DNA of 41,264 nucleotides, taken from assembly GCF_000003605.2 (NCBI RefSeq), contig NW_003150758.1, forward strand, positions 699,630 through 740,893, read 5' to 3'. This stretch comes from Saccoglossus kowalevskii (taxonomy: Eukaryota > Hemichordata > Enteropneusta > Harrimaniidae). The translations under genes and the position numbers were made by a program. The notes under the pieces were generated by a model, which saw only the letters and a program-made list of their open reading frames with translations, did no database searches and was not told where the DNA came from. This document shows positions 2,943 to 41,264 of this stretch, piece by piece. Position 1 is the stretch's first letter, and each line of letters begins with the position of its first letter.

Positions 2943-5900
2943 ACTTCCTGATCATGTGAGTTTTGAGGAGGGCGCTCTTTTAGAGCCATTGTCTGTTGGT
3001 GTTCATGCATGCAGACGTTCAGGGGTCACCCTGGGGAGTAAATTACTTGTGTGTGGGGCTGGTGAGTTCATAAATTGTACTGCAACTTAGTCTAGCTTGA
3101 AATTGGCTTTAGTTGCCATGTCATATAAAGTTTCAAATAGAGAAATATTTAGAAAACCACTATTTCAATTAACTATTACAAGTTGTTATACAATATGAGT
3201 TGTTAGCTTGTGTTGTGCATTTGTTTCAAAAAGTAATTATGTAATAGTACTTAGTACATCTCTAATTGCAAATAATATGTGGAAATATTTCTCTAAAAAG
3301 CAATAGAAAGGTTCAGAAAAATCAATCATAATCTGTAACCACATATTTGATGATAATATTTTGTATTAGGTCCAATTGGTCTGGTGAGTTTACTGACTGC
3401 TAAAGCCATGGGTGCAGCTCAGGTCATTATCACAGGTAGGCATATACCACCATACCAATGCCATATGTGTATAATCTTCCTTTTAGATAGGATTTAGCTA
3501 CTGTAAGATTGTTGTGGGAATCAGGTTTTCAATGTGCATTAATAAATGTTTTATAATACCAGGTGTTGAATAAGTATAATTAGTTTAAATAGTTAATCTA
3601 CTTTTCAATGGTTGTTCAACTTGATTTCAATGACTACTACTGGTACTACTGTTTCTGAATAATCGCAATCCATGTGGAATATACACACAAAGAGCATGAT
3701 AATTCTTCACAAATTCACCTACATATATATCTGTAACCAAAGTTATAGTTGGTTCAAGTAAACGTGAATACTACACTTATGATTTGTATCCTGTCTGATT
3801 AAAGATAATTTCAACTACAGTAACAACATTTTGTCCAATATTACAATATCAAAACTGATCAGACAGTTTTGCGTGGCTCAATTCGTGGATTATGATTTTC
3901 AACAACTTTTGAATAACAGTTTTGAAAAACAGACACGTTTAAAAAATACGAAATCACGTTGAAATTTAGAAGTGATAAAATTTAATAAGTAAAACTCAGG
4001 GAGTACTAAATCATTAAATTGCATACTTGGTACATCATTTTCATCAAAACAATCATTTTACGATGTTTCATAGCAAAACAAAAACACAGAATATGGGTAT
4101 GATTAAGTTAGAGAAAAGACTTTCAATTTATGTGTGAATAGGTAAAATACAATTATCAACACAATTATAATCACCTTTTTTAAAACACACTGTGCAGCAA
4201 AATCAACGTTTGTTCATTAATTAAAGCCTCAAAAATTGGAACTTAACTAAATGTTAGTGAAAAAAAAAATATTTTGTGATTGATCAAACTTGTAGAAGCA
4301 AATAAATTATTTATAATAAAATTACTTTTATCTTCATTTAAGTCATTATTTATATTGTATACACTGTAATAACAATTGTGACTGTTATTGTTTTATCCAC
4401 ATCATTAGATGGTTATGGACTTTCATATTACTCATATTTATTGAGACTTTAGCATTACTTGTCTCCAGACCCTACTATAAATTTACTGACTATAAGTTCA
4501 TTAATTATTTTTAATGTCACATCATGATCTTATTCAAAATGACCGAATAGAGTGGCCATTTTTACTTTCGAATTCATCTAAATAAAGCATTTTGTCATTC
4601 CTGTACTGCATCTCAGTTGTGCATAGACGAAATTTGTTCAAACTTTGTACATGCATTGAACTCAATGGGTTCTGTTGTTTTTTTAAGATTCGAAAATATC
4701 AACTTACGGACATTTTGTATTCAACAAATCTCGTTTCTGATTGCACTCAAATTGTATTCATCATGCCAAGCTTATTCAAGTTTTGATTCAAAATGGCTTG
4801 CTCATTTCAATTTTGACTTACTAATGAACAAACCAAAACTACTTATTACATATTGGAGCTGTGGACTTTTGTTGAGCTGCAATTTGACCAGTAGTTGACA
4901 TATTAACAATTATTCAAATGAGTTCCATTCTACGTTGTATATTTACCATTACACATATTTAAAATATAAATATTTGTAGATATAGACCAGGGCAGACTGG
5001 ATGTGGGCAAGCAGATAGGAGCTGATTTTACAGTGTTAGCAGACAGCGAAGATGGTCGTGAAATGGCAAAGAAAATAGAAAGTACACTAGGTTGTATGCC
5101 AGACATCTCAATTGAATGCAGTGGTGTGCCATCTAGTATCCAGACTGGGATTTATGTAAGTGGCATTATTTTGGTGATACTGGTAATTTCAGCACTTTTA
5201 TTCAATACTTCAAATTTTCGCTGTTGCTTTAAGATTCCCTTTTTTATATGTTAAGAGCTATAATGATAACTGAATTGTTTAGAGACCATTTTAACTGGTA
5301 GCATACTAGCCTGAACTGGCCTCAGGCTAGTTATAATCGGTCGGAGGACAATTTGTAGTTGCTGGTGGCTGTAAATATATATATATGTATATGCATGGTT
5401 TTAATTATGTATTTCTAGGCAACAAGATCTGGTGGGGTGTTTGCTCTTGTTGGTTTAGGACCATCAGATGTGACTTTACCAATAGTGAATGCAGCTGTGC
5501 GAGAGGTCGATATCATAGGAATCTTAAGATATGCAAATTGGTGAGTCAGCTTTGCTGATTACTCAATGACGATTAATTATTGTTTTGTTCTTTATAGCTT
5601 CATTTTTGCTAACATTTTTGAATATTTTAATACATTATGGTACCTAATGAATAAACATGTGGTAAAATAATTAGAGGATATAAACAGTAAGCTCGGGTAT
5701 TTGGTAGTGGATATAAAACTCCTCTGCAAGAAATTAGCCTATTTTTTGCGGGAATAATGACCTGGTGTAAAACAGTTCATTCAGTTTTGGGCAGGATCAC
5801 AGGCCTTCTAGCGCCAAATGTAAGACCTTGCTTCATCCAATCAGATGACTAAATACAGATTAACCATGTTAATAGGATATATGTGCTAGGCAATTTATAC

Positions 5901-29200: not shown

Positions 29201-30498
29201 ACCCCCCCCCCCCGCTTTAAATTCGACGGATTATTTGAGAGGTTGGAATGATAAAAATAATTTGCCTATAAATAAATGTCATTTATTACCGGCGATTAAA
29301 AAAATTGAACTTCATTAAAAACCTAACAACAATTTCGAATTGCACTTTATAATACTCGTGGTGAACTTTTATTGATTCGCTCCGACGACTTAACTATGAA
29401 TGGTAGATGTTATTCAACATATTTATTTTGGTGGCTCTACCGAATAAAATAAATAAATAGAGCAGCGGCGAGTTATATGCATTACAAGTGAGCTGCAGAC
29501 ACACCCGCTTATTTAAAAATCAGTGTCTAACAACATCTCCTGCAGCCCCAGTACCTAACGACGCCCTCTCGACTGGAGGTATGTGTTGAAAAGTAATACT
29601 AAGTTATTGCGGTGTGCGCAATACGATGAACAGCTTGTTATGTTTTTAAAATCACTTCACCCATTGAAGATACACCCCTAAATGAGATGATTTCATCTCA
29701 TGGAAAGAATCTGTCGTCCTGGGCGATAGCGATAACAATGAGACGAGTGTTAAGGGGTACACTGTATTATATGATAATGATAGACCAACTATCACACGAA
29801 ACAAAATACAAATCATTCTAAAATAACTTACTAATACCCTATTCTGGATTCATTGACCCGAATGAAAAAAATAGCTTTGCGATAAATATGCAAAGTTGAT
29901 TGTAACTTCGGGTTGAAACGAAATTTAAATATGTCGTAAATTATCTAAGGTAATAACCCCCAAAGTAGGACGTAGAGGTTACAACTTCCAAAGATAGTCT
30001 GTTTCGATGGATTGTCACTTAAGCCTTTCTTCAGAATAATAAATTCTCAATGTTGGTCGGTCTTTCTTCAAAGGATATGTTTCTTCCAACTGAATGTATC
30101 CCGTTTATAGCTTGACAGGTGTCAACAAGCGAGAAAATAAAAAAGCAATAGGGAAGGAGTCCAGAGACGGAACAGCCATCACCATCATCGACATTGGCTG
30201 TTTATCCTATTGATTTAGCATTTTAGCTGACTGATAACAAATGTCAAACTATCTGCACGTTCTGAATAGGATTAAAACAGGAGTTGTAAGCGGAAATTGT
30301 CACACGTCGATGTAAACACTGACACTTTCCCGCATAGTGGCAGAATAACCCAACCTCGGCTGTAGTGGCGGAGATGATACTAGATTTGACCGTATTGTTG
30401 TTCATATAAACGCTTCTTTCATTCTCATTCTGAGGAACAAAACATAGATACTTCACCTGGGTGTACTTCACATCTGGCTTGTCTACTTTTGCAGTCAT
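23239..30498 (-). CDS. Aldehyde dehydrogenase, ALDH1 type, complete
   Basis: NAD(P)+-dependent oxidation of aldehydes to acids; the short N-terminus without a targeting peptide suggests the cytosol. Twelve exons, in order of transcription: 30498-30457, 28249-28145, 26838-26698, 26606-26480, 26355-26165, 26077-25964, 25773-25671, 25510-25326, 24620-24456, 24080-23923, 23826-23752 and 23302-23239. They give 489 residues, against about 500 for the family. Conserved residues: Asn161 (PWNSP), Lys184/Glu187 (VVKTAEQTP), general base Glu260 (LELGGKSP), catalytic Cys294 (GQVCCAATR), Glu391/Phe393 (KEEIFGPV), then [10 protein letters not shown]. The segment around 165-186 is unusual ([20 protein letters not shown]). 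Intron 4 has a GC donor. The last exon contains a GTGAGT that could be a donor, so an alternative C-terminus is possible. The ATG is chosen because [14 protein letters not shown] joins in phase to IFINNEF. Retinal versus general aldehyde substrate cannot be told here. Confidence 0.93.
26356..26479 (-). other. GC-AG intron 4 of the aldehyde dehydrogenase gene
   Basis: The donor reads ATAG|GCAAGT and the acceptor TTTATAG|ATGG. Only this GC donor joins the exons to give the family-expected TIPIDGPFF in frame. The alternative GT four bases downstream breaks the frame. AG|GCAAGT is the known strong context for GC donors. Confidence 0.8.
26839..28144 (-). other. Intron 2 of the aldehyde dehydrogenase gene, with CRE-like site
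   Basis: No extra exon was recognised. A full CRE-like palindrome TGACGTCA lies at 27687-27694, directly after AGGTCAAAG (a nuclear-receptor half-site-like string). The 61-codon frame at 27681-27866 has no family resemblance. Confidence 0.3.
28250..30456 (-). other. Intron 1 of the aldehyde dehydrogenase gene
   Basis: A 2.2 kb intron separates the 14-codon first coding exon from the rest. It contains a C-rich run at about 29202-29214, a 9-bp-arm hairpin ATGAGATGA/TCATCTCAT at 29682-29701, and less AT-rich stretches near 28560-28820. No exon was recognised. Confidence 0.45.
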
Positions 30499-30689: not shown

Positions 30690-31235
30690 TTAAACATTGT
30701 AAAAAATATGGATAAATTAATCAATGAAGGTCAAACAGCATTTATTAAGAATAGATCAATAGGTGACTGTGTTCGTGTCATTGAGGGAATTATGAATACA
30801 CAAAAAATTATGAAAAATATGGGGTGCTTTTAACTATTGATTTCCAAAAAATCTTTGATAGTCTTGAATGGGATTTTATGTTCAGTTGTCTACGTAAATT
30901 CAACTTTGGTCCCTCTTTGTTAGGTTGGTTACAGGCCTTTTATTTAAATCCATCTGGTTGTGTGATGAATAGTGGACAGTCAACAGGTTATTTTCCCTTT
31001 CTAGGGGAGTCAGACAGGGGGATCCCCTATCGCCCATTTTTTTCATCCTGTCTTTAGAAACACTTTTGATAAAGCTGCAATATGACAATGGAATCAGGGG
31101 GATTAATATTGGTGGTTTTGAAATAAAACATTCTGCGTATGCTGATGACCCCACCTGCTTTATGTCAGACCTTCGTGCTGCTGAGAACCTCTTCACTCTT
31201 CTTCACCAATTCTCAGTTTTTCATGTTTAAAAATA
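30690..31235 (+). mobile_element. LINE reverse transcriptase remnant
   Basis: Frames interrupted by stops and shifts read as a non-LTR reverse transcriptase. In order: INEGQTAFIKNRSIGDCVRV near 30722-30780, LLTIDFQKIFDSLEWDFMF at about 30827-30880 (first catalytic Asp region), a block at about 30990-31060 where a frameshift splits the usual RQGDPLSPI-like motif, IFFILSLETLL, the catalytic AYADD at about 31137-31151, and a partial LKINKS-like thumb near 31228. Upstream endonuclease and 3' tail are absent. The L1/Tx1-like flavour is from memory. It lies about 200 bp upstream of the aldehyde dehydrogenase start codon, in opposite orientation. Confidence 0.8.
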
Positions 31236-31679: not shown

Positions 31680-31844
31680 TGCAAAGCGACCTCCTAAATT
31701 ACAAAAGAATCACTTTTAAATCTCTCATGGTAATCACAATCGTGGTTGCACAGCTTAGCAACGTAGTTCAAAAACGAAATGAACGACGAAATGACATATG
31801 TATACGCTTTGTATGAAGAAACGAATACACGAACAAACAAACTG

Positions 31845-31886
31845 GCAACCGGCGGTATCATCCTACGCACATTCATATACATATAA
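31845..31886 (+). promoter_or_regulatory. Core promoter of acidic-peptide copy 1
   Basis: GGCGGTATCATCCTACGCACA followed by a TATA-like TATACATATAA at 31876-31886. The same arrangement precedes all other copies. Transcription should start about 30 bases downstream. Confidence 0.6.
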
Positions 31887-31909
31887 TGATTGACAGAACT
31901 CAAAAAAAA

Positions 31910-31995
31910 TACCACATCAGTTTGTGAACAATATACAGGTATCCTGAATTCAGTGTGCATTATCATTGTTTCGTCACAGAAAAACAATCAGCAAG
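31910..31995 (+). other. Non-coding exon 1 of acidic-peptide copy 1
   Basis: Conserved segment containing TACAGGTATCCTGAATTCAG and no ATG, ending AGCAAG before the donor GCAAGTAAT. The start is estimated from the TATA position. The intron is 31996-32445, ending TTTACACAG. Confidence 0.55.
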
Positions 31996-32459
31996 GCAAG
32001 TAATATTTAGTTTATATAATAATGCTATGTGATCACTTTCACTTTCTTTGAATGTGGCCATACATACATTGTGACAAAAAAGAGATTGAGAACTGTTACG
32101 CGCAGATTGAGAACTGTAACACGCAAACATCTGTTCTGCAGCTTTTATCTTGTAAAAATTAGCATTTGTGTGTAAAAGAACATGAGCGCGACGTGACATT
32201 TTCAATTTATCATAGCCACGATTACCAGGAGATTTTTGTGTAATAGCATTTAATAAATATAGCCCAGGAGTTGTGGCATAGGTACTCACTTCGTGCAGTC
32301 ATGAATTATTTGAATAAAATAGCCATCCTATATGCGTTTCAGACATAATAACAACGCACTATGGAACAATGTTTCATAAACCTGACTATATAATAATATA
32401 AATAAAAAACATGACACTTTCTATATATTGTACATATTTACACAGGGTTCATCAATAAC

Positions 32460-32654
32460 ATGGCAGCAAGACGACTGATTCTGTTGTTAGCAATTATCGG
32501 CATAGCTGTGGCCTTAGAAGACCTACAGGAAGCTATAGCGTTTTGGGCCGAGGAACAAGGGACATTGATGGAACATCACCCAAATGTTGCAGAAGAATAT
32601 TGGTCAGAGGTCGAAAATATTTTAGAAAATGATGCAAATGTTAATGGTGCGTAG
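32460..32654 (+). CDS. Acidic secreted peptide, copy 1 (64 aa), unknown family
   Basis: I do not recognise this family. Residues 1-18 (MAARRLILLLAIIGIAVA) form a typical signal peptide: a basic n-region, a hydrophobic core and an AVA cleavage motif. The predicted mature 46 residues contain 10 Glu, 2 Asp, no Lys or Arg and no Cys. Net charge is about -12, with helical-looking spacing and an aromatic pair around the EEYW segment. No dibasic processing site is present. Start context is AACATGG (A at -3, G at +4). Coding is confined to one exon, behind a 5' UTR intron. The three other copies support the reading frame. The function may be extracellular (ion binding, partner to a cationic peptide, defence, secretion product); none of these is shown by the sequence. 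Confidence 0.8.
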   Translation: MAARRLILLLAIIGIAVALEDLQEAIAFWAEEQGTLMEHHPNVAEEYWSEVENILENDANVNGA

Positions 32655-32717
32655 ATGCTGAATACAACTACCTTCCAATGACTGGCAGAGAATGTCTTAG
32701 ATACCCTGAAGCGTTGA

Positions 32718-32728
32718 AATAAAATAAA
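32718..32728 (+). terminator. Poly(A) signals of acidic-peptide copy 1
   Basis: Overlapping AATAAA hexamers at 32718-32723 and 32723-32728, about 65 bases after the stop, in a 3' UTR that is conserved with copy 4. Confidence 0.7.
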
Positions 32729-32729
32729 T

Positions 32730-34120
32730 GGAAATGAAATATATTATTGTTTCACATATTTAGTGAGTTGGTGAATGAGTGAGCGGTTGGTGGACGTACA
32801 TAAAAGTTGACTTATTTGAATGAATACAATAAATAGACGCAATAATTTTTTGAATATAATATAATTTTAAGAGATACGTATCTTGGTATTTGGTTTAGCA
32901 TGCATAAATATTTCCTGACTTAAATAATAAATTTAAATTTAAGTTAATTTTACGATATGCAGTTTGATAAAACTGTGTAAATATCTGCAAATTATTTGAG
33001 TTCAATTAAACTGCAAAAAAATTGAATGACTCCACTTATCAGATCAACCAAGGTGTGAGCGCATGGGTGTACACGCGCACATTGTTTTTATGTTGTGGTA
33101 GTAATTTCTAGGCATATTAGATAGAGAATGGATGACCGTGCGTTGCATAATTGTCAGACCCATGCCCCAATATTAGCCCTCCTTTGTGTGGTCATTGGTT
33201 TACTAAAGCAACACGTCACCCATCTGTCGTTTATCTCAGGTCAAAGCTACCTAAGAGTACAAAATCAAAGACAACGGGAGCAGAGTCAACGTAAAAAGCA
33301 TTGTCAATGTGACAAATGTGTCGGATTTGTTTTCAAAGCAGGGATTTTGAATGTACGCTTTGATTAACCACCCAAGATTCCCAGCAGGTGGAATAGTTTG
33401 GCAATTTCTAAATACCTAAACCTACAATCTATTATTACCTGAATACCACGTGATCTATAGAAGCGGGATCAGTCTCTCTTCAAATGTTTTCGCTACGTTC
33501 TGTGATATATTAATTTTAACTTGGTCTTTTGGGCTTTCACACTCTTTGAATTCAGGGACCCCAAATATATTTCAGATCTCTCCACGAACATCGGGTCAGA
33601 CTTTTGGGGAGGTAACAGACATGAATAAAACAAAAATCATTGACACGGAAATTGCAATACAAAATAACAACTTGGATTAATTTACATCTAATATAAATAT
33701 TATTCAGCATATAGTTGGCCTGTGTGACGAGGCAGTAGCCATCCTGGTTGTATAGTTAAAAATTCAGCATTCACTTGGTAAAAAAAACGAACACACTAAA
33801 AAAACTAGCAGAAATGATGTGAATGTAAAGAAACTATATACAATTAAGATAAAGACATGAGTAACTATACACAGAAAGCTCAAAATAAATGAGGCTTTAC
33901 CCTCCTTGACCTCAGGGACCTCCATAATTACAAAATAATCGAGATCTTTCCATGAACACATGGCCCAGGCCCATTGGTGTGATATGGCAATCGCCACTTT
34001 GGTTGCACTAGTTAGCAAGCCAGTTCTTGCTTGGAAAACTAAATGAACACAACTAAATCATGCCCAAATATCTAGCAGAGACGAAACTAAATAAATGAAA
34101 AAACAAACAAACTAACAACT
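32730..34120. other. Spacer between copies 1 and 2, itself repeated
   Basis: It contains the shared downstream block (33122-33270) and two related upstream blocks in succession (about 33480-33780 and 33890-34060). This suggests that the upstream part of unit 2 was duplicated on its own. The open frames seen here lie in these non-coding repeats and are not conserved between units. Confidence 0.5.
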
Positions 34121-34153
34121 GGTGGTATTATCCTACGCACATTTATATATACA
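34121..34153 (+). promoter_or_regulatory. Core promoter of acidic-peptide copy 2
   Basis: GGTGGTATTATCCTACGCACA then TATATATACA at 34144-34153, matching copies 1, 3 and 4. Confidence 0.6.
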
Positions 34154-34174
34154 TTGATTGACAGAATTCAAGAA

Positions 34175-34268
34175 TATCACAGCAGTTTGTGAACATTACA
34201 CAGGTATCCTGAATCCAGTGTGCATCATCGTTCGCTTGTCACAAAAAACTATTACCAGCATTACCAAG
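34175..34268 (+). other. Non-coding exon 1 of acidic-peptide copy 2
   Basis: Matches the first exons of the other copies (CACAGGTATCCTGAATCCAG) and ends ACCAAG before the GC donor GCAAGTAAT. Intron 34269-34635. Start estimated. Confidence 0.5.
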
Positions 34269-34649
34269 GCAAGTAATTTTTAGTTTTATTTACTAATTAT
34301 ACATAATAATTTTCACATTCTTTGAATGGAATCATACACTTGAATCTGGCTGTGGCAGTTTTTGTAGGGTAAAGAGCAGACATTTTGTGAAAAACAACAT
34401 GAGCAGTCATGAGTACCGGGCAATGTTGCTAGATCATTGAGTAATAACCTTAAATAAGAATCGTCTGAGAGATATGGCATTTGAGCTCATGGCGAAAAGC
34501 CACTTCACGTAAATAATTTTTTAAAAATAGCAATTTCCTCGGCACTCGAAGCATGATAACAACACATAATGGAACAATATTACAAAAACATGATTATAAT
34601 ATTTAAGTATTGAAACATTACACATATTTACACAGGTTTTTTTAATAGC

Positions 34650-34846
34650 ATGGCAGCAAAACGAATTATATTCTGTTGTTGGCAATTATCAGCATAGCAG
34701 CGGCCTCAATTGACCTTCATGCAGCTGAAGTGGAATTTGCTGAAGACGACGCAAAATTTATGGAAAATTATCCAATAATTTCAGGACAATTCTTGTCAGA
34801 GCTCGAAGACGATGTGGAGAATGCTGAGGCAAATAATGACTGGTAG
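34650..34846 (+). pseudogene. Acidic-peptide copy 2, frameshifted in the signal peptide
   Basis: The start codon and first codons match the family, but two extra bases around 34666-34671 shift the frame. Translation from the ATG then ends at a TAG after 15 codons. The remaining sequence, read in the shifted frame, still looks like an acidic mature peptide and runs open to TAG at 34844-34846. Promoter, first exon, GC donor, acceptor and AATAAA (34917-34926) are all still present, so inactivation looks recent. An assembly indel is the alternative. Confidence 0.8.
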
Positions 34847-34916
34847 AGGCTAAACACAACTACTTTTGATTGACAGGTATAAAATGTTGTAGATAATCTG
34901 CTGATGTATTGAATTA

Positions 34917-34926
34917 AATAAATAAA
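34917..34926 (+). terminator. Poly(A) signals after copy 2
   Basis: Two overlapping AATAAA hexamers at 34917-34922 and 34921-34926, in the family-conserved position. Confidence 0.55.
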
Positions 34927-34929
34927 TAG

Positions 34930-36500
34930 AAGAACAAAAAAATAATGTTTCACAGTTAATCGATGAGCTAGCTTTGGGAGGGGTTGGCTTAGGCGTACAT
35001 GAAAAGTGAAGTTATTGTGTGTGGGTGTGTGTGGGTGTGTGTACCCGCATTTGTTATGTTGTGGCAGTAATTTCTGACCAACTTAGAAAGACTAGCGTCA
35101 CTGGAAGACGATGTGTTGTATAATTTACTAACCTACGTCTAACTAGTAGCCCTCCATTTTGTAGCAGCTGGTTTATTATAGCACCACGTTGCATTCTGTC
35201 CTCGTTCATCTAAGGTCAATGATTTCTCCGTGTACAATATAATGACACCAAGAGCAGCCTCTGCTTTAAAGCCGCATTTACTACATTATCTATCGAATTC
35301 CATTCTGACAGCATATTGAAAGGAACAATTTCAACTGTAGCATTATATTTATTTTAGATTTGTCATCGACGTAACGCGTTCGCCAGGACACGTCAATTAA
35401 TTAGCAATGCTTCCCAACTAATGTAAAACAGTTGAACGCTTATCAGAATTCGTATTCTAATAACCATAACCAGGGAGAGATCTTATTAGGGGAAGGGCAA
35501 TAGACCCAAATAAATCTGCAACCTACGACTAGGGTTCCCCTGCTATTCCTGGGGACAAAGAGATTTGAAAAAAAAAAATGACATACGGTCAGTCAACCAT
35601 CCTTTGTGTTCCAATCAATGTACCCTCTCATGACGATAATGGAACATATAATTCATCCTGTCAGATACAATACACGTTTAATAACTTATTACAGCATTAA
35701 TTAATTTTAAAATGTTTTGATTTGATTGTTTTTTTCTTCTAAAATAGCTTAAGTGGATACGAGATTCAAAATATAACTTCTTTTGCGAGACTGAGTTGAA
35801 CATTGGCTCCCTATTCGTGAGGTTTTCGGTACATCACTAATGAGGATTTTTTTTTTTTTTTACCCTGTTCCAGATTAGACAATACAAAATTATTCATTAT
35901 TCACATAAGTAAATTTTAGACCATGGTTGTCCGGAACAACCCCAGCGACTTTCATCGATTTTCGTCTCTATGCAATGTATTATTATGACCATTTCTGAAG
36001 GCTGGACCAAAATATGTTCATTGTCCTCCAATAACAACTTGAAACGCGACTCTCACGGAGTTCGTGTGATGGGTAAGTGATGGCAACGTTACTATTATTG
36101 GCGACACAGCTAACTAATTCAGTATTCGGCATAACTCACCTATTGCTAGAGCCCCATAGCATAATGACTAATATATAGACATTTAATTCGTTAAAATGTG
36201 GATAGTGACCTGGTATAATGCGTGTGTTGTCATATAATTTTTAGAGAAGGGGGAATTAATTTCCCTTAAATTGATTGCGCCCGTTTACACTCTTTGAATT
36301 CTGTGACCTCCTAATTTTCAAAAATTCTCTATGAACACATGGACCAGGTCGTTTGGTCTGACGTGGCAATCGTCTTCTTGCTCGGTAAACAAGCTCAAAT
36401 AACGAGCATAGATGATTTGGAAGTCGAGGTGTGTCCGACGACGAAATACTACGTCATATAATACGCGTGTGAGCTGAATGAAGAAACGAACAAACAAACA
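34930..36500. other. Spacer between copies 2 and 3
   Basis: It contains the shared downstream block (about 35095-35260), then about 1 kb not obviously shared with the other units (about 35300-36270), then the shared upstream block (about 36280-36500). No coding feature was recognised. Confidence 0.45.
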
Positions 36501-36537
36501 ACCAGTGATACTATCCTACGCACACTCATATATATAC
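36501..36537 (+). promoter_or_regulatory. Core promoter of acidic-peptide copy 3
   Basis: CAGTGATACTATCCTACGCAC then CATATATATACA at about 36527-36538, matching the other copies. Confidence 0.6.
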
Positions 36538-36559
36538 ACAATGATTGACAGAATTCAAA

Positions 36560-36654
36560 ATTATCACAGCAGTTTGTGAAAATTATACAGGTATCCTGAA
36601 TTCAGTGTGCATCATCGTTGGCTTGTCATTGTAAAGAAATTCACCAGTTACAAG
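36560..36654 (+). other. Non-coding exon 1 of acidic-peptide copy 3
   Basis: It contains TACAGGTATCCTGAATTCAG like the others and ends TTACAAG before the GC donor GCAAGTAAT. The intron 36655-37392 is longer than in the other copies because of an inserted hairpin-bearing segment. Start estimated. Confidence 0.55.
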
Positions 36655-37017
36655 GCAAGTAATGTTTAATTCTATATCTTCATTTTCTTTCTTTTGAATC
36701 CGACCACACACTTGAATTGTGAAAACCACAGATGAAGCAGTGTAACACGCGAATCTCAGGTCTGCAGCAGTGTTTGTATGGTAAAGAGCAGTAATTGTGT
36801 GCAAAACAACTTGAGAAAGATTTGAACGCATGACGAAAAGTCTCATTGTAATGCAGTCATGAAATATTGGAATACAACAGCAATTCTATATGCATTCCAT
36901 ACATGATAACAACATACTATGGAAAAATATTAATATAAATTGATTAATATTAAATATTAATTAATATAAAAAATACTATAATATTTAATACTCCAAACAG
37001 GACACTCTCTATATAAT

Positions 37018-37127
37018 ATGAGGTTATTATGAGAATACCTCAAAGTATGCACGAAGACAGTACAACGGAAGTATCGAGGGCGTACTGTCTGAGTGCATAC
37101 TTTGAGGTATCCTCGTAATAACCTTAT
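37018..37127. repeat. Near-perfect 46-bp-arm hairpin in the intron of copy 3
   Basis: The left arm 37018-37063 and right arm 37082-37127 are complementary at 41 of 46 positions, plus two G-T pairs, around an 18-base loop. The shared arm core is ATACCTCAAAGTATGCAC. No counterpart is seen in the introns of copies 1, 2 and 4, so it was inserted after duplication. It could be a foldback transposon or a hairpin RNA source. Confidence 0.85.
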
Positions 37128-37407
37128 TATTATTATACATATTTAGAACAAGTTTAGAACAAAATCAGAGAACTTCTTTATGTGGAGTCCAGTCAAACCC
37201 TGGTGGCAGCTATGTTCGTTTTTATTATTAGAGGACGCTTACGCGCGTAATCATAACATTTGGAATTTGTATTATCTTATATGGCAGGTTGAAAATACCC
37301 CGTAAAATACCGAAAAATCACGGCACGCTGTAACTTACGGCGTTACGGTCACAGATGTATAATAATAGTATATATTGTATATATTTACACAGGCGTTTAC
37401 CAATAGC

Positions 37408-37614
37408 ATGGCAGCAAGACGAATGATCCTCTTGTTGGCAATTATCGGCATAGCAGTTGTTTTCAGTTTAGAAGAACAACAGCTGACAGCTGAAGAGTAT
37501 TTGATTGGAGAAATAGCACAAGAAATGGTAGATCACCCAGAAATTGCAGATGAATATTTGTCACTGGTCGAAAATGATATAAAAAATGAACTGGCAAATG
37601 ATAATAGCGTTTAA
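37408..37614 (+). CDS. Acidic secreted peptide, copy 3 (68 aa), unknown family
   Basis: Same architecture as copy 1. The signal region MAARRMILLLAIIGIAVV is followed by FS and then a 48-residue acidic part with 10 Glu, 4 Asp and one Lys (net about -13), without Cys. It is four residues longer than copies 1 and 4: the junction after the signal has an extra VFS, and the middle carries TAEEYLIGEIAQ. An in-frame ATG at 37375 lies upstream of the splice acceptor inside the intron, so the start at 37408 (AGCATGG), which matches the other copies, is preferred. Function unknown. Confidence 0.78.
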   Translation: MAARRMILLLAIIGIAVVFSLEEQQLTAEEYLIGEIAQEMVDHPEIADEYLSLVENDIKNELANDNSV

Positions 37615-37651
37615 ATATGTACCTTTGGTTGTAGAGGACCTAATGGATTGA

Positions 37652-37657
37652 ATTAAA
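37652..37657 (+). terminator. Variant poly(A) signal of copy 3
   Basis: ATTAAA about 40 bases after the stop, where copies 1, 2 and 4 have AATAAA. Confidence 0.5.
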
Positions 37658-37659
37658 AT

Positions 37660-38500
37660 ATATAGAAAAGTAAAATATGAATGTTCCACATATTCAATGA
37701 GTTGTAGAGATAGCGGATGGCGAGAGTGTGTGCGCGCTTTTTGTTTATGTTGTGGCAGTACTTGTGGCTTCTTAGATATAGAAACAACACTGGATGACCG
37801 TGCATTGTACAATTCTCCTTTGTGTGGCCATTGGTTAACTATAGCAACACATCGCCCATCTGTCGTATCGTTTAAGGTCAGTGCTACCTAAGAGTACAAA
37901 TCTAAGGCAACGGAGGCAGAATATGCTTCAAAAGCCGCATTTACGACATTATCTAAAATCGAATACCGTTCTGAGAGGCTATTCGATGCGACAAAATGAA
38001 TATGCACCAAGGCGAGAATGGATGAATCATGTTTTTTTGAGAGACTTGTTACATTCAGAATATTGTAGTTCTGTTTTACCATACTGTACATTTTGATAGT
38101 ATTATTGTGTACTGATTTATTCTTATTTGGGTAGTGATAGAGTACCGCGTGTTCAATTGGACCAGGTTCGCCCTCCCTTCAAATAATTGCGCCACGTTCT
38201 GAAATAAATTGCAACCGGATTGGTCTTTTGGGGCTTTACTTTTTGAATTTATGCACCAAACCTCGTTAAGCCCCCTCCACAAACATTCGGGTGAGATTTT
38301 TTGGAAGGCAACAGACTTGAATGAACCCCAAAACATTAATATTTTTCTGACACGATAAGTGCAATACACAATAACTGCGCGAATGATTTTACATCTAATA
38401 TCACTATTTCCGGTCAGCATACGACATGACATGTATGTGTGACGTGGCAGTAGCCATCTTGCCTGCATTGCTTAGCATGTTATTACTCAGAACCACCGGT
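37660..38500. other. Spacer between copies 3 and 4
   Basis: It carries the shared downstream block (37785-37920) and the shared upstream block (about 38130-38345), the latter resembling 33440-33650. Frames here are not conserved between units and are treated as non-coding. Confidence 0.5.
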
Positions 38501-38534
38501 GGTATTATCCTACGCACACTCATATATATATATA
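38496..38534 (+). promoter_or_regulatory. Core promoter of acidic-peptide copy 4
   Basis: CCGGTGGTATTATCCTACGC then ATATATATATATA at about 38522-38534, matching the other copies. Confidence 0.6.
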
Positions 38535-38554
38535 GTATGATTGACAGAATTCAA

Positions 38555-38649
38555 AAATATCACATCTGTTAGTGAACATTATACAGGTATCCTGAATTCA
38601 GTGAGCATCATCGTTGTCACAGGAAGACAATAATTACTAGCATTACAAG
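38555..38649 (+). other. Non-coding exon 1 of acidic-peptide copy 4
   Basis: It contains TACAGGTATCCTGAATTCAG and ends TTACAAG before the GC donor GCAAGTAAT. Intron 38650-39066, ending TTTACACAG. Start estimated. Confidence 0.55.
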
Positions 38650-39080
38650 GCAAGTAATATTTAGTTTAATTTAATAATTCTATGTCTGATGACTCATCAC
38701 TATCACATACTTTTAATGCGACCATACACTTGAATTGTATAACGCAAACATCACGTTAGCTAAATTATGTGTACGGTAGAGAGCAACAATATTTGTGTAA
38801 AACAACCTGAGCGCGGCATGACATTTTATTTTTGATTTCAAGTGTCCATAGTCATGAGTTTCAGGCGATATTACTTGATTTTTGGTGTAAGTTTGGCCCG
38901 TGAGTTGTGAAATTTGAACGCACCGTGAAATATTGTCACTTCATGCAGTAATGAAAGATTTGAATAAAATAACATTTCTATAGGCGTTCCAGACATAATA
39001 TCAACACACTATGGAACACTATTACGAACACGAGACTTCATATATATATTGTACATATTTACACAGGAATTATCAATAAC

Positions 39081-39275
39081 ATGGCAGCGAGAAGAATGAT
39101 TCTGTTGTTGGTCATTATCGGCGTAGCAGTGGCTTTGGATGACCTACAGGCAGCTGAAGAAGAACTGGCTGAAATCCAAGCACATTTTATGGAAAAATAC
39201 CCAGAGGGTGCACAACAGTATATTCCACTGCTCACAGAAGATTTAGAAAATGATGCAAACAGTATTGGCGTGTAG
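39081..39275 (+). CDS. Acidic secreted peptide, copy 4 (64 aa), unknown family
   Basis: Signal MAARRMILLLVIIGVAVA, then a 46-residue mature part with 8 Glu, 4 Asp and one Lys (net about -11), no Cys and no dibasic site. It shares DLQ near the mature N-terminus, the ME..P turn and the C-terminal LENDAN with copy 1, while the residues between differ widely. Start context is AACATGG. Downstream AATAAA is at 39344-39349. The 75-codon minus-strand frame over this exon is a shadow. Function unknown. Confidence 0.8.
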   Translation: MAARRMILLLVIIGVAVALDDLQAAEEELAEIQAHFMEKYPEGAQQYIPLLTEDLENDANSIGV

Positions 39276-39343
39276 ATGCTGAACACAGCTACCTTCTATT
39301 GACGGGCCGAGAATGTCGTAAATAACCTGATGTGTTGAATTGA

Positions 39344-39349
39344 AATAAA
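39344..39349 (+). terminator. Poly(A) signal of copy 4
   Basis: AATAAA about 70 bases after the stop, in a 3' UTR conserved with copy 1 (shared strings CTGAACACA-like, GAGAATGTC and TGTTGAA). Confidence 0.7.
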
Positions 39350-39773
39350 TGGGCGATGAAAAAAATATGTTTTACATATTCAGTGAGTTGGTGAGTGAGT
39401 GGGTGGTGGAAGTACATTGTTATTTCACTGAATACTTTAGTGAAAGTTAATTTCCACCATAGAAGTGAAACCGATTGAAATAACTAAATATTCTAATATA
39501 ATTTTCGGAAATACGTGTTCGGTTTAGCATAAAAAAACGTTTCTTTACTTTAAACATAAATTCCAATTTAAATAAGTTATTTTTTACTATATGCAGTTTG
39601 ATTAAACTGAGTAAATATCTGCCAATTGTCTGAGTTCAATTGAACTGACTAATATGCAATATAATTGAATGACTTCAGTGAGATTCAGAATTCAGTGAGA
39701 TTTCTCCATGTACACACGCCAGGCCTTGTGATTTTATGTGGCAATCGCAATCTGTGTTGCTGCTTACCATGCC

Positions 39774-39823
39774 AATACCGGTGGTGTTATCCTACGCACA
39801 CTCGTATATATAAATATATATAT
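39774..39823 (+). promoter_or_regulatory. Orphan fifth promoter of the acidic-peptide array
   Basis: CCGGTGGTGTTATCCTACGC at 39779-39798, followed by a TATA-rich stretch to about 39823. It is a close match to the promoters of copies 1-4. Upstream sequence (TGGCAATCGCAAT near 39739) is also shared. No matching first exon, GC donor or coding exon follows before 41264, so the unit is truncated. Confidence 0.7.
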
Positions 39824-39959
39824 GCAACGATCAATCAAAACAAACTTTGTAACCACTACGTTCTGCTGCAGATGTGGGAAATCGCTTTTGGAGTTATTAC
39901 CGAAGAAAATGCACGCTATGTGAAATTCGTTAGTACAATTATGTAGGTGCAATCGGTAC

Positions 39960-41264
39960 AATCGTGTCATGCTCGAAATTTATTGTTCATCAACTTGGAA
40001 TATTTATCGCAAAAGTCTTTTTTTCCTCGGGTCAATGAATTCGGAATCAATTGGGTATTAGTACTTTATGTTAGAATGTTTTTTAATCGGTTTAGTGTAA
40101 CACTAGCGTTGGTCTAGCATCATCATATGATAGCATTACAAACATGAAGTGCACGGTATTGGTCACGGTGTACCCCCGACCGATATTATCGTTGTCGACC
40201 ACACGAGAGTGGGGGACAGTTATAACTTTCAGATGTATGAACTGGGGAAGTCACAATGTGGATTGTGGGTATGAATAGAAAATGTATGCCGATGACTTTG
40301 TGATTATTTGGAATTTTGATTTTTAACAAGTTGCTCCTCGTCTTACGTACACTGCAACAATAAATGACTATTTTTAACACAACCCGAGGTCGTCGAGAGC
40401 GGCGTTAGGTACTGACGTTGCCTGTCATTTTTATAACACGCTGCTGTTTTTTTTTTTTTTTTTATCAAATTCGGTATCACCTCGTGAATAATTATTGATG
40501 TACCACCTACCATTCATTGCTCAGTCGTCGCAGCGAATTAATAAAGTTCACCATGAGTATTATCAAGAAATCGATTCGAAATTGTTCTGTTTGTACGAAT
40601 TTTATATTCATTAGATGTCGGTAACAAATGCCCTTTTTCATAGACAAATTTATATTTATGTTAAACCTTTTGAATAATTCACCAAACCGAAACAAATTTA
40701 CATCCTACCATCTACCGTCACCACAGTCAATTGGCTGGTTCCCGCCTCAAGTGTCATGGCGCACCAAGCCACAAGAGGTTGGTAACTAGTAATGCGTCCA
40801 GCATTCTGATTGGTTGATAAAGTTCTCATTCTTTGTTTATTTTCTCTTGGTTACCTGACGTCAGCGCTTACGCTCGTGGCACTTCTAAGTATGGAGCATA
40901 GCTTTATTTTTTGATATCACGGATATAGAACTATTTCTTTTGTTATCACTTTGAACAAAAATAGCGAAAAACGCTACAACCACATCCAGTATCAACGGTA
41001 TAAGCAAGTGGAATGAATGGACGCGGCGTATTACACACACGTTAACGGAAAACGGGACTTTTTTTATATTTAATAAACTTTTATTGAGTCTTAGTACAAT
41101 AGTACAACAACTTACAAGTAGCACATACATTGTTTCATAGAAAAATTACATCTTAGAAAAGTAACTGTTCATACACTATGTCAGACATTAAAATGTGATT
41201 AATACAATTGTGGTCTTATTACTTTGCCAATACTGCAAGGAACTTGCCCCATTTTTTAGGTGCT
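39960..41264. other. No gene recognised at the right edge
   Basis: It contains a long T run at about 40447-40463 and short anonymous frames, the longest being 81 codons on the minus strand at 40885-41130. None resembles a known family. Confidence 0.45.
40808..40864. promoter_or_regulatory. Possible promoter: inverted CCAAT box and full CRE
   Basis: ATTGG at 40808-40812 and the palindrome CTGACGTCAG (CRE core TGACGTCA) at 40855-40864 lie in a locally less AT-rich stretch. This is suggestive of a promoter for a gene starting beyond the window, but no transcript is visible. Confidence 0.25.

Follow-up and report, generated by a model that had tools for sequence, protein, structure and literature searches.

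Tandem genes for small, strongly acidic secreted-type peptides in Saccoglossus kowalevskii and a second cluster of their relatives

Families of secreted peptides that combine a frozen signal peptide with a freely changing mature part are mostly cationic or cysteine-rich. Among acidic peptides, HAP-1 from scorpion venom is disulfide-free and is described as having no antibacterial effect itself while inhibiting a cationic antimicrobial peptide; according to its authors, no acidic peptide of scorpions had been functionally characterized earlier (PMC6321396). The arminins and periculins of Hydra are presented as lineage-restricted, small secreted precursors with paralogues arising by tandem duplication, and most Hydra antimicrobial peptides as combining a bipartite charge with a complex cysteine pattern (PMC10945409). 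The phrynomantins of frog skin are reported as related transcripts with strikingly diverse predicted processed peptides (PMC7070584), and Galleria AP2 as an anionic, defence-related peptide (PMC7139982). Here we describe a family of genes for small, strongly acidic, secreted-type peptides in the hemichordate Saccoglossus kowalevskii, four copies of which (units A–D) stand in tandem in a 41,264-nt window (the whole stretch analysed, C4069:699630-740893) of a 572-Mb genome assembled in 4830 contigs.

The initial annotation of this window had proposed a tandem array of tiny acidic precursors of the secreted type, with three intact copies and one broken one, and our analysis confirms it. The units lie at ~31.8–39.4 kb with start-to-start spacings of 2.0–2.4 kb, and each consists of a promoter block, a putative exon 1 in the 5′ untranslated region (UTR), an intron, a single coding exon and a poly(A) signal. 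On the + strand, the coding sequences (CDSs) of A (32460..32654), C (37408..37614) and D (39081..39275) are intact and encode 64, 68 and 64 aa, respectively; in B (34650..34846, +), the frame is lost within the signal peptide and the remainder past the frameshift is open in a different frame up to a stop at the equivalent position. Judged by eye with the (-3,-1) rule, the signal peptide spans residues 1–18 in A and D and approximately 1–20 in C, with predicted cleavage after AVA or VFS (after AAA in the B piece). The mature parts of 46, 48 and 46 aa (A, C and D) then have net charges of -12, -13 and -11, with -13 for the module of B, as the annotation had it (about -11 to -13). Asp and Glu make up 12–14 of the 46–48 mature residues of A, C and D and there is no cationic end; Lys and Arg together number zero in A and one each in C, D and the B piece, and all four are free of cysteine. 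Outside the signal peptide the copies are far less alike, with mature-part identity to D dropping to 37–47%.

Genome-wide searches revealed members of the family beyond the array. Protein searches with D, A and C recovered the four array copies, and those with D and A gave in addition a single weak hit on contig C3898 (E 1 and 6.5, respectively). At this locus, L016 (L016:1495-1815), lies the gene for a precursor of 106 aa that starts like a signal peptide and continues with two modules in tandem. The coding profile of the array matches L016 with an nhmmer E of 7e-17 within the 3.2-kb locus, and in all eight comparisons of its modules with the four array modules the local alignment score was reached by only 0–9 of 1000 shuffles. 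Its two modules differ less from each other (dN 0.19, dS 0.28), which argues for an internal module duplication. L016 in turn retrieves a fragment, L023, and L022 (E 3e-9; reciprocally, E 2.6e-9), which lies 97 kb away on the opposite strand and encodes a one-module precursor of 64 aa. First exons extend the cluster further: of six loci scanned with a profile of the A–D first exons alone, L017 (E 5.6e-06) and L016 (E 0.0023) gave matches. Once these two had been added, the profile also picked up three first exons from outside it, one in L022 (E 6.6e-23) and two orphans, L019 (E 1.7e-12) and L026:6378-6269 (E 3.9e-07). Overall, the promoter/first-exon block was counted ten times, and in five cases (A, C, D, L016 and L022) the coding exon that goes with it is intact; these counts are lower bounds, the genome searches scoring best candidates only. 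All five intact genes share a strongly negative net charge of the product (about -10 to -18).

No family in the collections searched accounts for these proteins. The best Pfam scores were 14.8 bits for A, C and D (cut-off 27), 17.3 for L016 (cut-off 32.2) and 12.8 for L022 (cut-off 34.5), the best NCBIfam score for A, C, D and the B piece was 13.5 (cut-off 125), and PDB searches by phmmer (D and L016) and by profile (A, C and D) gave at best an E of 0.11, which was discarded. Two short patterns served as the start for searches of viral contigs (56 pattern matches) and of bacterial and archaeal genomes (96 pattern matches), in which tblastn found no relative, the reach of this approach being close relatives only, and nine peptide strings of the family did not occur in the literature searched. 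The annotation's view of the family as unrecognized therefore stands as far as Pfam, NCBIfam and PDB go, including the profile searches of A, C and D; the array it described is one part of a wider family.

The family also departs from several known classes in its features. Dibasic sites (KK, KR, RK or RR) of the kind that release short peptides from neuropeptide prohormones are absent from all five mature parts (A, C, D, L016 and L022), which, with zero cysteines in five of five, also lack the conserved framework of cysteine-rich toxins and defensins; the annotation had reported the absence of both in the array. What the array genes do show is the pattern of a diversifying secreted-peptide family, namely a conserved signal, a diverged mature part and tandem paralogues, and the new aspect is that such a family is cysteine-free and charge-conserved, which is unusual. 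Compared by description only, the scorpion acidic peptides are similar to the array in their short secreted precursor, richness in acidic residues and lack of disulfides, although HAP-1 itself has 19 residues and a predicted pI of 4.25 (PMC6321396); the family as a whole likewise unites acid-rich sequence, absence of disulfides and a signal peptide, the last assigned by rule. It resembles the Hydra arminins and periculins as described in PMC10945409 in being lineage-restricted, small, secreted and tandemly duplicated but, unlike most Hydra antimicrobial peptides, A, C and D have no cationic part (0–1 Lys/Arg against 12–14 Asp/Glu) and all five mature peptides are without cysteine. Likeness to the phrynomantins, which are from a vertebrate (PMC7070584), and to Galleria AP2 (PMC7139982) is by description only.

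Signal and mature parts differ sharply in how they have diverged. Using Nei–Gojobori counts with bootstrap for the pairs AC, AD and CD, we obtained signal-peptide dN of 0.03, 0.09 and 0.05 against dS of 0.49, 0.49 and 0.72 (bootstrap P(dN>dS) 0.01, 0.02 and 0.00), which bears out the common signal peptide of the annotation, versus mature-part dN of 0.44, 0.50 and 0.53 against dS of 0.32, 0.53 and 0.35. The signal peptide is thus under clear purifying selection and the mature sequence is not, while positive selection on the mature part is not proven. In all six pairs of units the promoter blocks are better conserved than the introns (Fisher p 0.0003–0.036), as is exon 1 in three of six (p<0.05). 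In A–D, the best-aligned pair, identity is lower in the mature part than in the intron (63% versus 75%, Fisher p 0.008), with no significant difference in the other five of six pairs. The mature frames have stayed open, and not by chance, since only 4.9–8.6% of runs per copy remained stop-free after 50 simulated neutral substitutions.

These observations leave little room for the idea that the units are non-coding repeats or DNA derived from transposons, with a frame that is open by chance. They do sit among repeats and near a reverse-transcriptase remnant, but the synonymous bias in the signal peptide, the indels of 3 and 6 nt among the intact CDSs, the open frames and the homologous coding exons on C3898 all speak for protein-coding genes. 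In the 572 Mb searched as DNA, the D block occurs at five places, all in the array, and the L017 block at four, all on C3898, so the unit block is not an abundant dispersed repeat, and Rfam gave no match in the window at gathering score. We consider this explanation next to negligible.

Net charge has been retained while the mature sequence changed. We simulated neutral mutation with intron base composition and transition bias (4000 runs per starting copy), under which a mature part starting at -11 to -13 is expected to reach a net charge of -2.2 to -2.5 after 50 substitutions, reflecting a strong neutral pull to Lys; actual pairwise mature differences are 42–56 of 138. A charge of -11 or below survived in only 0.28% (A), 0.20% (D) and 0.65% (C) of these runs, whereas it lies between -11 and -13 in four of four array copies, the broken B included. 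We therefore take charge as the conserved property, and net charge itself looks like the selected trait.

The gene family itself is well supported, by the genes and their architecture, the signal-like N-terminus, the divergence pattern, the retained charge and the second cluster, all of which are observed directly. As to function, we infer that this is a lineage-specific, birth-and-death gene family for secreted acidic peptides, probably helical hairpins, that bind cationic partners via their charge, a reading to which we give a probability of roughly 45%. A secreted effector, perhaps one of defence or of an exocrine gland, is suggested because promoter and signal are conserved while the mature part is free, units are gained and lost and a module has been duplicated internally; the retained negative charge indicates an electrostatic role. 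The family would evolve by tandem duplication and loss of units. An intact gene would comprise a promoter block of the TATA type, then a first exon without coding sequence, and a single coding exon. Removal of the signal after the AVA or VFS site would release, from the array genes, an anionic peptide of 46–48 residues, in which two weakly predicted helices may be joined at a conserved (H/Y/N)P turn, with L016 representing two such modules in tandem. The peptide would most likely be produced in an epithelial or exocrine secretion, where its negative surface could bind a partner that is cationic, be it a metal, a microbial protein or a peptide with antimicrobial or toxic action, leaving partner-facing residues free, or driven, to change. 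Among described roles we favour, with modest confidence, one like that of HAP-1, namely the binding of cationic partners in a secretion. In a more specific and quite speculative version, selection would act on net negative charge and the two-helix outline rather than on sequence, yielding an evolvable polyanionic decoy or antagonist that checks cationic antimicrobial or toxic peptides, whether the animal's own or an enemy's, and that is amplified by duplication of genes and of modules within genes. If expressed, the five intact genes, one of them with two modules, offer a natural series for probing strongly anionic secreted peptides.

A number of results weigh against binding by a charged hairpin. 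When the mature part of D was modelled by AlphaFold2 with the four array modules, helices were predicted at residues 3–20 and 22–42 with a break beside the conserved Pro, but model confidence is low (mean pLDDT 69, pTM 0.40), and a Foldseek search of the model in PDB returned 11 matches with E of 8.2–9.6, which were discarded, and none at E<=0.001. The hydrophobic moment exceeded that of shuffles at p<0.05 in only two of eight helices, so that amphipathicity is modest and the hairpin no more than plausible. The modules on C3898 hold 2–3 Lys/Arg each (five in total in L016, three in L022), and it is therefore only in the array that basic residues are almost lacking. Mature dN is not significantly greater than dS (bootstrap P(dN>dS) 0.82, 0.46 and 0.80 for AC, AD and CD), so constraint on mature properties other than charge may be relaxed, and the charge test itself becomes weak if just 25 substitutions are allowed, when 6.1% (A), 4.3% (D) and 11.7% (C) of runs remain at -11 or below. 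Finally, in the ten block copies the coding exon is broken in one (B, frameshifted) and absent or fragmentary in four (window position 39777, L017, L019 and L026/L023).

The loss, breakage or fragmentation of half of the coding exons, together with a mature dN/dS of ~1, is what might be expected of a decaying, nearly neutral family of formerly useful secreted peptides, the mature part of which is now unconstrained while signal and promoter are still conserved for the time being. Such a family would not readily explain why the signal peptide is strongly conserved, why A, C and D all have open frames despite a chance of 4.9–8.6% each, why charge was kept at 0.2–0.65% under neutrality or why two more genes are intact on C3898, and we regard decay as unlikely, if worth serious consideration.

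Turning to function, the peptides might instead attack microbes themselves as anionic antimicrobials, for instance via a membrane interaction bridged by metal or salt. Against this stand a helical amphipathicity that is mostly weak and a charge far more negative than expected for a membrane-active peptide. Such direct action appears improbable, even though the peptides are small, secreted-type, multigene, fast evolving and in part amphipathic as helices, and anionic defence peptides have been described (PMC7139982). A reproductive or pheromonal secretion, whose peptides would signal from gametes, in seminal fluid or through the water and would have diversified under sexual selection or selection for species recognition, has precedents in the rodent pheromones Esp and Mup, which are described as duplicated, diversifying secreted families (PMC3477143). 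Given the lack of dibasic processing sites, and a conserved charge that this explanation does not need, we find it more doubtful still. The abundance of Asp and Glu (12–14 of 46–48 residues) might also suit a structural, calcium-binding or storage role as an acidic component of a matrix or mucus, but the peptides are short and without long acidic runs, hydrophobic residues are interspersed in a helix-like manner and no N-glycosylation sequon is present in any of the five mature peptides, making this role very unlikely.

The anatomy of the units agrees with the annotation's proposal that whole units, from promoter to poly(A) signal, were duplicated. By blastn, A and D are 68% identical over 1286 columns (E 3e-122) and B and D 68% over 915 columns (E 2e-73), and the pairs A-B, A-C, B-C and C-D align piecewise in several segments each. 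Every promoter block contains CCTACGCACA and a TATA-rich stretch; all were located by genome-wide DNA search, at 31848..31904 in A (83–91% identical to the blocks of B–D), 34118..34169 in B, 36501..36556 in C and 38495..38552 in D, all on the + strand. The putative first exons follow, by alignment, at 31905..31995, 34170..34268, 36557..36654 and 38553..38649 (+; transcription start presumed), and in four of four copies end with AAG directly before GCAAGTAAT. The GCAAGT at this position (AAG/GCAAGT after 31995 in A) would be a GC-type donor, giving predicted GC-AG introns of ~370–740 bases that start at 31996, 34269, 36655 and 38650. This splice-site prediction is supported because L016, whose exon 1 aligns with that of D, reads GTGAGTAAT at the aligned position, an ordinary GT donor, and L022 likewise has a GT donor (GTGAGTA). 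A predicted acceptor, TTTACACAG, lies 5′ of the coding exon in all four units. Exon 2 would thus span 32446..32735 in A and 39067..39365 in D (+; 3′ ends approximate) and start at 37393 in C, and poly(A) signals are found at 32718 (A), 34921 (B) and 39344 (D) as AATAAA and at 37652 (C) as ATTAAA.

Beyond unit D, a promoter-only relic of a fifth unit remains at 39777..39816 (+, 40 bases, 92.5% identical to D and 93% in the genome search), which the profile matches with an E of 1.2e-07 although the relic itself was outside it. The intron of C carries an inverted-repeat, MITE-like insertion at 37013..37133, detected as an opposite-strand self-match (79% over 122 columns). The array is flanked by two stretches in inverted orientation, 29251-29900 and 39989-40659, that are 73–78% identical in their matching pieces and are possibly copies of one mobile element.

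We rejected L020:5846-5730 as a further paralogue (tblastn E ~0.027), its frame showing neither signal nor module by eye. For the orphan first exons at L019:9201-9362 and L026:6378-6269, no fitting coding exon turned up among same-strand ATG frames of >=40 residues over 3.5 kb. L022:1486-1690 (minus strand) has GTG where its relatives have ATG, and its frame apparently begins at an ATG three codons downstream. The unit at L026:6378-1901 (minus) and L023 seems to be split, with a first exon followed 4.3 kb on by a 25-residue module end, which adjoins coding sequence that looks retroelement-like by eye. An ATGA microsatellite lies directly downstream of both intact C3898 genes (L016:1900-1970 and L022:1323-1400).

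The window ends at the end of contig C4069, has a G+C content of 34% and includes an assembly gap at ~14.4–15.2 kb, an N run, with 703 N in the window. Neighbouring the array are exons belonging to an alcohol dehydrogenase of the zinc type (4970-5251, +; 27.4 bits, slightly under the cut-off of 31.8) and to an aldehyde dehydrogenase (26.1–27.1 kb, - strand), and the reverse-transcriptase remnant lies at 30785-31054 (+; 24.9 bits versus a cut-off of 29.6).

Elsewhere in the same genome assembly, contig C4830 (17037 bases; loci L043 and L044) is the mitochondrial contig, whose code and gene order may fit an ambulacrarian, hemichordate-like animal such as an acorn worm. Its COX1 reads seven in-frame TGA codons as Trp; of its eight ATA codons, five align with Ile, two with Val, one with Leu and none with Met in the best PDB relative, so ATA apparently encodes Ile, which would argue against an arthropod, and AGA and AGG are absent among the 447 COX1 codons read. 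ARAGORN, run with the bacterial code, identified six tRNA genes. With genes named by eye, ND6 and COX1 lie on one strand and the other genes are read on the opposite one, with ND3, ND4L, ND4 and ND5 consecutive.

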